Shown: piece after piece, positions 35,677 to 38,584 of the stretch
Position numbering within the stretch: the stretch's first letter is position 1
Layout: the number at the start of each line of letters is the position of its first letter
Assembly (NCBI GenBank): GCA_927443345.1
Contig: CAKMKJ010000052.1
Coordinates: 1-64,000, forward strand
Reading direction: 5' to 3'
Source: an uncultured Anaerolineaceae bacterium
Lineage (GTDB): Bacteria > Chloroflexota > Anaerolineae > Anaerolineales > Anaerolineaceae
DNA: 64,000 bases
Position numbers and translations under genes: made by a program
Notes under the pieces: generated by a model
What the model was told of the DNA's origin: nothing
What the model saw: only the letters and a program-made list of their open reading frames with translations
Database searches by the model: none

Positions 35677-36708
35677 TCAGTGAAGCATTTCAGTGTGATC
35701 GATGAGTTTTCCGTCAATAAATGCTTGAACCGCGGCATCAATATCGCTCAAGTCGGTAACAACAGGTTGAATGTTTAATTGACGCATACTTTCATATGCA
35801 CCCATTCTCATACCGCCGCACAACAGCGCTTTGCAATCAGCGATGGTCTCCGCCATGCTCACATGCTTATTATGTGAAGCCGAATCCATTCCATGACCTG
35901 CGCCAGGTGCTTCTTCAGTATGTGCCTGTTCCTTGAAATGTGTGTGCCCCATTTTATCGCGCATTTCGCGGCTTACAATTTTGCCTTCTTCAATTGTCAA
36001 CACCAAATAGTAAGGGGCGCGTCCAAAATGCTGGCTGATCGTTTTACCATCGTCAGTAATCGCTGCTACTTTCATATTAATCTCCTTTTTCATTGTTTCC
36101 ACAGAAAAGTGCCTTCCACCTGGTTCTTCCCTCCCATCGGATGGAAAAAGTGTAAGCAATATTTCAGCGGATTGCTTTGTTGGATTTTCCCAACAGTGAG
36201 GAAGATGCGCTTCGAAAACCAGGCTATCACCTGCTCTTAAAACATATTCTTCACCTTCAATTTGATAACGGATGGTTCCGGCCAGACAATAGACAAATTC
36301 ATAACCGGTATGAACTATCATCCGATCGCCGCTGCCCATTCCGGGTTTAATTGTGACCACAAAAGGCTGAACTGCATTTCCGGCAAAATCCTTGCCCAGG
36401 TTTTGCATTCTTGTACTACCAAAAGCTGTCTGAGGGCGGTTGTTTGCAGAAGTGAATACCACACGCTTGTCGACTGGTTCACATTCAAAGAATGCTGAAA
36501 TAGGTATCTGAATGGCAACAGCCAATTGCTGGAGAGTACTCACCGAAGGAGATGATTTATCGTTTTCAATCAAACTCAAAGTATTAATATTCAAACCACT
36601 GCGTTCGGCCAGGGACTTTAAAGAGAAACCTTTTTTTGTCCGCAGCTCTCGGAGTCTTCTTCCAACCAATGCTTCAGCGGGGGTTTGTTCTCCAGCAATT
36701 GAACCCAT
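35677..36708 (-). CDS. XRE-cupin regulator fused to a NifX/NifB-like (dinitrogenase cofactor) domain
   Basis: A 343-residue protein. Residues 14-70 form an XRE helix-turn-helix (SLKSLAERSGLNINTLSLIE). Residues ~105-185 form a cupin sensor domain (TGYEFVYCLAGTIRYQIEGE, DSLVFEAHLPHCWENP). Residues ~212-343 form a dinitrogenase iron-molybdenum cofactor-binding domain (MKVAAITDDGKTISQHFGRAP, CKALLCGGMRMGAYESM). XRE-cupin proteins usually stop near 190 residues. Here the frame runs without a stop into the second domain, whose own Met212 (ATG at 36075) is preceded by AGGAG at ideal spacing. It may thus be a fusion, two overlapping products, or both. The OsmC gene ends 5 bases upstream, so the two share a transcript. 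Confidence 0.85.
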   Translation of the reverse strand: MGSIAGEQTPAEALVGRRLRELRTKKGFSLKSLAERSGLNINTLSLIENDKSSPSVSTLQQLAVAIQIPISAFFECEPVDKRVVFTSANNRPQTAFGSTRMQNLGKDFAGNAVQPFVVTIKPGMGSGDRMIVHTGYEFVYCLAGTIRYQIEGEEYVLRAGDSLVFEAHLPHCWENPTKQSAEILLTLFPSDGREEPGGRHFSVETMKKEINMKVAAITDDGKTISQHFGRAPYYLVLTIEEGKIVSREMRDKMGHTHFKEQAHTEEAPGAGHGMDSASHNKHVSMAETIADCKALLCGGMRMGAYESMRQLNIQPVVTDLSDIDAAVQAFIDGKLIDHTEMLH

Positions 36709-36713
36709 CTATA

Positions 36714-37148
36714 TTACTCCACGGAAAATTCTACGGGGGTCAAGTTATGGATATTATCTGAGATCGGGCATCGTGCATCCACTTCCTTCAAGAAAGCTTC
36801 TTTTTCTTCCTGACTCATATCTGCATCAATTTTTGTGTGAACACGAATACCGGTGAATCCAGACCGCACCGCGGTGCTTTTGCCCATTAATACATCCGTA
36901 TCCAATTCACCTTCAACGTGACACTCAATTTTTCTAATTGGCAAGCGGCGTTGTTTTGCCACAATATTACCAATGGTCACAATGCAACCTGCCAAAGAAA
37001 TGAAAAGGTATTCCAATGGTGTCGGGCCGGCATCGGTTCCTCCATCTGCCTGCGGTTGATCAACAATCGCAATATGCTGCCTCGATTTTGTTTCGATTTT
37101 GAACCCTGCTATTTGCACTGCATCTACAGAAACTAATTTGACTGGCAT
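36714..37148 (-). CDS. OsmC-family protein
   Basis: A 144-residue OsmC/YhfA-like protein. Two cysteines are placed as in the family, in FISLAGCIVTIGN and DARCPISDN. Some OsmC/Ohr proteins reduce organic hydroperoxides through this pair; other members have no proven activity. GGAG precedes the ATG. It is the first gene of a two-gene unit with the XRE-cupin-NifX regulator, suggesting a redox- or sulfur-related response, which is inference. Confidence 0.85.
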   Translation of the reverse strand: MPVKLVSVDAVQIAGFKIETKSRQHIAIVDQPQADGGTDAGPTPLEYLFISLAGCIVTIGNIVAKQRRLPIRKIECHVEGELDTDVLMGKSTAVRSGFTGIRVHTKIDADMSQEEKEAFLKEVDARCPISDNIHNLTPVEFSVE

Positions 37149-37296
37149 TTTTCTCCTTATGAACCCATAAATATACTATTATTATAGTACATAATATGCA
37201 ATTATGTAAATTTCATACCAAAATTATTATATAATTAGATGTAAATATCAAGAAGACTCTCCAGGCAATAGACACGATTGAAAAATTCACCATAGC

Positions 37297-37330
37297 AAAA
37301 AAAAACTGGCCAATTCTAAAAATTGACCAG
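37297..37330 (-). terminator. Terminator of the second receiver-CpaE gene
   Basis: A 10-base-pair stem CTGGTCAATT / AATTGGCCAG (one mismatch), loop TTTAG, followed on the minus strand by nine T. Confidence 0.8.
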
Positions 37331-37402: not shown

Positions 37403-38551
37403 CTACTCTTTTCTGAACGCAGTTAGTCGCTGTGCCATCTTGGTAAACGCCTGGCTGGTCGAGGTGCGAGGGGCGAGCTCCATATACGGCGTGCCCTGGT
37501 TGATGGCGCGGACCATATTGACATTGTCGTATGGAATTTCGGCGAAAATGTCTTTCTTCAATCCTTCAGCAATTTTTACAGGATTTAGTGAGCTTTTTTG
37601 GAAGGTTTCATTTACCACCGGCAGCACTTTGCGGCGGTCAATGCCCATTTCTTCAAACAGTCTCAGCGCCTGGTAGGTGGCATTCACAGAAGCCAAATCG
37701 GGCGCAAGCGGCACAATAATAGCGTCACTGCGTTCCAGCACAGAGATAATCGGATCAGTAAAATGGTTGCCGCCATCCACCACGATAAATGGGGCGAGCA
37801 TCTGCAGAGGCGCCCAGACAAGGTCAATGGTGGCGCGGTTCACCAGGTCGCCTTCTTCAAAGAATTGCGGAGAAGGAAGCAGACTGATGCCTGACGAATG
37901 ATCTATAACCATAGAACTGAGCAGACCTTCTTCAATGCTGCCTTCAGGCCAATCAGCCAGAGAAGCCAGCGTATTCTTCGGCTTGAGGTTAAGCATCAGC
38001 GCGCACTGTCCGCCTGAAAGCGCCATATCCCATAGACAAGTCTTGATTTCAAGCACCTGAGCAATGGCGACCGCCAGGTTAACTGCGATGGATGTTGTTC
38101 CTACGCCGCCACGCAGACTGAAGACCGAAAACACTTTAGAAGACGATTGCGATATGGATGATTTTTCTTTGTTACGGCTTAACAGCGCTTTGACCCGCAG
38201 TTCCAATTCATCTGGGCTGACCGTCTTGCTGATAAAATCATCCGCGCCGGCTTCAAGCCCTGCGACCTTGTCTTTGAGATCAGTTTGACTGGTAAGCATA
38301 ATCACCGGCACTTTGGCGGTCTGCGGATTTGCCCGAATGGTCTTAATAAATGTATAGCCATCCATGCCCGGCATCATCACATCAGAGATGATCAAATCAG
38401 GGGTCTTTTGAGACGAGGTCAACCAATCCAACGCGTTCTGGGGACGGTCGTGGGCTGAAACTTCATATCCAAGGCGCAACAAGATGGCCTTCAGTTTGTA
38501 GAGTGTAATTTCACTATCTTCGACGATCAAAATTTGATATTTGTCACTCAT
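37403..38551 (-). CDS. Receiver domain fused to CpaE/MinD-like ATPase (second copy)
   Basis: A 382-residue paralogue of the protein at 9886-11037. The receiver (1-120) has the acidic pair IVEDSE, phosphoacceptor Asp in PDLIISDVMMPGMDG and Lys in DDFISKTVSP. The ATPase (about 135-382) has the deviant loop FSLRGGVGTTSIAVN, where the usual signature Lys is Arg, as in many CpaE proteins, and a second motif LWDMALSGG. ATG 38551 is chosen because GGAGG lies just upstream; the in-frame TTG at 38563 overlaps it. It follows a receiver-HPt gene by 33 bases and probably shares its transcript. Confidence 0.88.
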   Translation of the reverse strand: MSDKYQILIVEDSEITLYKLKAILLRLGYEVSAHDRPQNALDWLTSSQKTPDLIISDVMMPGMDGYTFIKTIRANPQTAKVPVIMLTSQTDLKDKVAGLEAGADDFISKTVSPDELELRVKALLSRNKEKSSISQSSSKVFSVFSLRGGVGTTSIAVNLAVAIAQVLEIKTCLWDMALSGGQCALMLNLKPKNTLASLADWPEGSIEEGLLSSMVIDHSSGISLLPSPQFFEEGDLVNRATIDLVWAPLQMLAPFIVVDGGNHFTDPIISVLERSDAIIVPLAPDLASVNATYQALRLFEEMGIDRRKVLPVVNETFQKSSLNPVKIAEGLKKDIFAEIPYDNVNMVRAINQGTPYMELAPRTSTSQAFTKMAQRLTAFRKE

Positions 38552-38584
38552 GCGGACCTCCAAAACATTTCAATTAAAGCGGAT

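Follow-up and report, generated by a model that had tools for sequence, protein, structure and literature searches.

In Desulfovibrio, the orange protein (ORP) complex consists of Orp3, Orp4, Orp8 and MrpORP (PMC6345978), and the ORP operons are under sigma54 control (PMC3897727). In MrpORP (Orp9/DVU2109), which occurs mainly in anaerobes, a Nitro_FeMo-Co (Di-Nase) domain with the motif CXHFGHCE is joined to a P-loop NTPase (PMC6345978). PuuR-type regulators combine an XRE-type helix-turn-helix (HTH) domain with a cupin domain. The short form of CheA is an in-frame product made from an internal start. The lysA gene of mycobacteriophage Ms6 likewise contains an in-frame nested gene with a short product from an internal start (PMC3111421).

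We analyzed a 64,000-nt stretch of genomic DNA (the window) from an uncultured member of the Anaerolineaceae, a family of oxygen-avoiding bacteria. A minus-strand open reading frame with no internal stop carries three Pfam domains, each above its cut-off (Table 1), bearing out the proposal of the initial annotation that a complete XRE-cupin regulator runs in frame into a NifX-like domain. As in MrpORP, a Nitro_FeMo-Co domain is joined to another domain; the partner here is a DNA-binding XRE-cupin instead of a P-loop NTPase, and ORP-like genes adjoin the fusion in several relatives. The HTH and cupin domains are common to PuuR-type regulators and, by fold, to HppE and Vibrio 1y9q, whereas the fusion has a NifX-like domain as well and carries a second start nested in its frame. 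As with CheA and lysA, a single frame would yield a long product and, by internal initiation, a short one. In contrast to both, the nested gene appears to have been separate formerly, relatives switch between split and fused states, and the longer product is putatively a transcription factor. The parts are of known kinds and their combination is new; searches of open-licence PMC papers found no account of the fused architecture, of its preserved nested start or of the DNA site described below.

Table 1 Features of the fusion locus, with positions in the window.
Feature	Details	Position	Strand	Basis
Fused CDS	XRE-HTH + cupin + NifX-like, 343 aa; long product	35677..36708	-	ORF + Pfam
HTH_3	Residues 19-71; 48 bits (cut-off 23)	36496..36654	-	Pfam
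Cupin_2	Residues 117-185; 63.9 bits (cut-off 27.2)	36154..36360	-	Pfam
Variable linker	Residues 196-211	36076..36123	-	Alignment + structure model
Nitro_FeMo-Co (NifX-like, PF02579)	Residues 220-331; 51.3 bits (cut-off 26.3)	35716..36051	-	Pfam
Internal Shine-Dalgarno	AGGAG, in codons AAG-GAG (K208-E209), 6 nt 5' of ATG	36082..36086	-	Sequence + comparison
Nested in-frame CDS (inferred short product)	From Met212, 132 aa, NifX-like alone	35677..36075	-	Sequence
OsmC-family CDS	144 aa, PF02566; first gene of unit	36714..37148	-	ORF + Pfam
Candidate operator	GTACTATAATAATAGTA, near-palindrome over -10 box	37174..37190	-	Genome's sole exact match
Promoter-like site	TTTACA-18-TATAAT, 11/12 matches, ahead of OsmC	37181..37210	-	Consensus match only
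Terminator-like hairpin	With T-run, end of upstream gene (37403-38563)	37306..37330	-	Consensus match only

The OsmC gene ends 5 nt before the ATG of the fusion, and the single promoter-like site lies ahead of OsmC, in agreement with the earlier suggestion that the two genes share a unit. This unit looks separate from the upstream gene, since the terminator-like hairpin closes the latter.

HTH_3 followed by Cupin_2, each above its curated cut-off, identifies the first part as an XRE-cupin. Its score against the PuuR model (NCBIfam NF007408) was 91.6 bits, below the cut-off of 211; thus, it is similar to PuuR but is not PuuR. The cupin residues H133, E137 and H171 were invariant in 28 aligned fused proteins. 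The structure model (pLDDT 78.6, pTM 0.42) was good inside the domains and says little about their arrangement, and its top structural matches were HppE and the Vibrio XRE-cupin 1y9q. The iron ligands of HppE are two His and one Glu. Residues 196-209 of the linker (pLDDT < 50) and a His-rich insert in the NifX-like domain (259-274) were predicted to be disordered. H227, H255, H272, H282 and C292 of this domain were invariant in all 28 proteins. In place of the CXHFGHCE of MrpORP it reads SQHFGRA, with Ser225 invariant in the 28 proteins, and so its ligand may differ. Our confidence in any identity of the ligand is low; metal or Fe-S binding by this domain, and the redox or metal switch suggested in the initial annotation, are putative.

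Homologue searches, as proposed in the initial annotation, found both domains in one open frame in 35 of 147 Anaerolineaceae genomes, and a scan of named genomes added three public records (L120, L134 and L137), giving 38 fused loci. Among the carriers are the isolates Ornatilinea apprima, Levilinea saccharolytica, Anaerolinea thermolimosa, Leptolinea tardivitalis, Longilinea arvoryzae and Leptolinea sp. HRD-7. A sequencing error or assembly join was ruled out because independent isolates and MAGs carry the fusion; these sequences establish both the fusion and its spread. Two genes fused across the junction were truncated (G154 and G146), and four genomes were counted as neither fused nor split (G109, with an XRE-cupin and no NifX found; G110, G009 and G114, with partial or cut genes or contig ends). 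Apart from L120, no full-length fusion beyond the family appeared in the match tables of 396 class genomes (E <= 1e-45) and 400 phylum genomes (E <= 1e-55), both sets drawn evenly from larger groups. L120, titled Thermoleophilia (Actinomycetota) UBA6103, carries a fused gene with 74% identity; the contig perhaps belongs to Anaerolineaceae and was mis-binned or mis-named, or the gene was transferred. As a control for other NifX fusions, none of five long frames with a NifX match (L238-L242) joined a regulator. Four of them were stand-alone NifX genes, two lying inside long chance frames, and the long frame of L238 continues downstream through a masked stretch.

The same pair of domains is split by a stop in six relatives (G010, G011, G013, G089, G119 and G120) and in the second copy of the host itself (contig C35). 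Free NifX genes with a Shine-Dalgarno sequence (SD) of their own occur among split relatives. In G011, the stop is a TAG at the first SD codon, where most fused genes read AAG. The host paralog (G000:C35:56500-71000, approximately 6608-7629 of L098) is 62% identical, its stop codon and its SD run together (TAAGGAG), and within 720 nt of it no operator could be recognised. Stand-alone NifX genes are found in G115 (C26) and G017. The initial annotation had stated that close relatives with a stop between the domains would refute the fusion. Such relatives do exist; the fusion nevertheless stands, because 35 of 147 genomes have it and split pairs are the minority (7 of 44) in the clade that contains it. 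In a tree of 58 gene pairs, which left out G146, this clade of 37 fused and 7 split pairs had support of 100/95, and all 14 pairs outside it were split. At least four changes of state are needed, two being forced by the starred branches, and the tree does not tell gain from loss of fusion. From this comparison, the fusion is old but not universal in the family, and a two-gene operon was probably ancestral to it.

Upstream regions of the fused genes have in common a near-palindrome around the -10 box, GTACTATAATNNTRGTAY. In the window, GTACTATAATNNTRGTA overlaps the -10 box and is matched exactly only once in the 3.67-Mb host genome; allowing two mismatches, 0.10 sites were expected in the window by chance and two were found, being the same place on both strands. 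A site within two mismatches lay upstream of 32 of the 36 fused genes with enough upstream sequence (all but G005, G112, G116 and G090; L120 and G154 had too little), and for each of the 32 none of 100 base shuffles was as good. The site is thereby established as conserved. Distinct exact sites numbered 29 in the 147 genomes, against five hits of the reversed pattern. Twenty-four precede an XRE-cupin gene (16 fused, 8 unfused), so the site belongs to the regulator subfamily and not to the fusion. The remaining sites include one before the stand-alone NifX gene of G017, one before a MinD/NifX operon on a different contig from the fusion in G016, one at a contig end (G107) and one with nothing recognised nearby (G097). 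Because the site covers the -10 box, its position suggests an operator for repression, and the regulator may control its own gene; our confidence in such autoregulation is moderate.

An exact site also precedes a PNPOx-like flavoprotein gene in G017 (L213 1501-1921). A homologue follows the fusion in G021 and G016, and thus this gene may be a regulon member.

Recurrent neighbours of the fusion encode OsmC, a pentapeptide protein and a PadR regulator with DUF5320, joined in several genomes by a second NifX-like protein, two ferredoxin-MinD ATPases, an Fe-S assembly protein (FeS_assembly_P) and a radical SAM protein. Only 15 of the 38 fused loci have the end of an OsmC gene, whether intact or a remnant, immediately upstream, and OsmC is therefore not an obligatory partner. 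In G017, G021 and G020 (L232 1-1700; L078, L081), remnants of OsmC separate the conserved site from the NifX or fusion gene, an arrangement suggesting that OsmC formerly belonged to more of these operons. The two ORP-like ferredoxin-MinD ATPases found beside the fusion in some relatives, and with them the MinD/NifX operon, were not found in the host genome (best match, 42% over 55 aa), so that operon cannot be a target of the regulator here.

Downstream of the fusion or the split pair, G005, G010 and G011 encode a putative metal-chelation protein (DUF364/DUF4213) and a molybdopterin hydroxylase (L104 1804-4710 and neighbours; families tested on one representative each). These neighbours hint at molybdenum.

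The initial annotation had further noted AGGAG at good spacing before Met212. The junction reads ATG AAA AAG GAG ATT AAT ATG, confirming the AGGAG, with a spacer of 6 nt before the ATG of residue 212. The internal ATG and its SD were kept in all 38 fused copies. In each of the 35 fused genes of the family genomes, the ATG was present at Met212 and had an SD of 4 nt or longer at a spacing of 5-8 nt; of the 302 remaining in-frame ATGs in these genes, 22 had such an SD. In the window, a 4-nt SD at valid spacing preceded 7 of 375 in-frame internal ATGs (35 ORFs >= 250 aa), and only 3 matched the median strength of the Met212 sites. The first SD codon was AAG in 29 of the 35 genes and never AAA, and the second was GAG in 30 and GAA in 2, against same-gene backgrounds of 37% (AAG) and 30% (GAG); Fisher tests gave 1e-12 and 1e-13, values that ignore relatedness. 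Counted by codon alignment, AAG stood at 29 of 30 (G118 adds one AAA) and GAG at 30 of 32. L120, L134 and L137, left out of the codon tests, read AAG GAG NNN NNN ATG. No conserved RNA structure was detected at the junction by RNAalifold with 35 codon-aligned sequences.

Codon 194 (Glu194, window 36127-36129) was GAA in all 30 sequences, with no steps on the tree. This codon is thus no less fixed than those of the SD, and freezing is not a peculiarity of the SD; GAA here perhaps prevents a rival SD from arising (AGG-GAG).

If only the fused protein mattered, the AAG-GAG-N6-ATG stretch would be a relic of the split gene, or Lys-Glu-Met would be kept for the sake of the protein. A split ancestor is probable, hence an SD was already there at fusion. 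However, the two SD codon columns changed once and twice on the tree, against a median of eight for 78 two-fold columns in 34 genes, even though fused relatives are as little as ~50% identical to the query protein, and the codon choice opposes the local bias. Met occupied position 212 in all 35 genes while neighbouring linker residues varied. In G118, the SD is shifted by one base and encodes other residues, which argues that the nucleotides are kept and not the amino acids. We regard a relic as very improbable. That the stretch is a programmed ribosome pause, allowing the cupin to fold before the NifX domain, agrees with its location exactly at the domain boundary and linker, but a pause would need neither an ATG 6 nt downstream, nor AAA as the second codon of the nested frame (29 of 35), nor a start region more open than random positions of the same genes (0.557 vs 0.410 unpaired, p 6e-7), and the same kind of element is a gene start in split relatives; we find a pause hardly credible. 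The frozen codons, the few changes on the tree and the SD kept out of frame in one species together indicate that the internal start is under selection. Conserved SD and ATG with selection on the nucleotides, the marks of a nested gene, are established in the fused genes, and the earlier idea that the second protein could be made alone gains support. By this comparison, one gene very probably gives two products, a reading in which our confidence is high.

Two further alternatives concern the long form and its DNA site. The short NifX protein might be the working product, with the long form a by-product of stop loss that senses nothing; the interchange of fused and split states and the persistence of stand-alone NifX genes fit this explanation. 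Against it, a single step would turn many linker codons into stops, yet the 38 fused loci keep the linker open, and many columns of the HTH and cupin are invariant in the 28 aligned proteins. A mere by-product therefore seems unlikely. The upstream site contains TATAAT and scores as a promoter, and it could be a strong promoter without being an operator. This is quite improbable, as conservation extends past the -10 box in a dyad-like manner (T13 40/40, G15 36/40 and A17 36/40, counted over the 40 upstream regions, out of 51, that have a site at three or fewer mismatches) and most exact sites in the 147 genomes precede XRE-cupin genes.

We consider it likely that this is a true fusion with two products, a long autorepressor acting at the -10 site and a short NifX-like protein. 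The stop between two operon genes would have been lost and the ribosome-binding site of the second gene kept. The long product would be an XRE-cupin repressor bearing a NifX-like cluster- or cofactor-binding domain, and the short product would be this domain alone, with Met212 as its start and an SD of its own to direct translation. The XRE-cupin part would bind the near-palindrome over the -10 box and repress its own operon, which is OsmC-fusion in this genome; a MinD/NifX operon like that of the ORP complex would be a further target in some relatives. Metal-cluster loading of the NifX domain would be the signal read by the repressor. Four of these points are our inference: the production of both proteins, the role of the site as operator, repression, and loading as the signal. 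A self-reporting switch is a tentative and somewhat doubtful extension: one gene would give the working cluster carrier, the free NifX-like protein, and a repressor with an identical copy of the carrier as its sensor. Translation would set the ratio of the two as they compete for one and the same cluster, and the repressor would read the loading of the carrier and shut its own operon. Switching between split and fused forms would tune the ratio, the second start never being given up.

The locus gives a clear natural example of two genes fusing while selection keeps the start signal of the second within coding sequence. Since split and fused forms exist in close relatives, why both forms are kept is a directly testable question. 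In addition, the fusion is a candidate for the regulator of a NifX/MinD-type metal-cluster system in Anaerolineaceae, and the DNA site it would use is defined.
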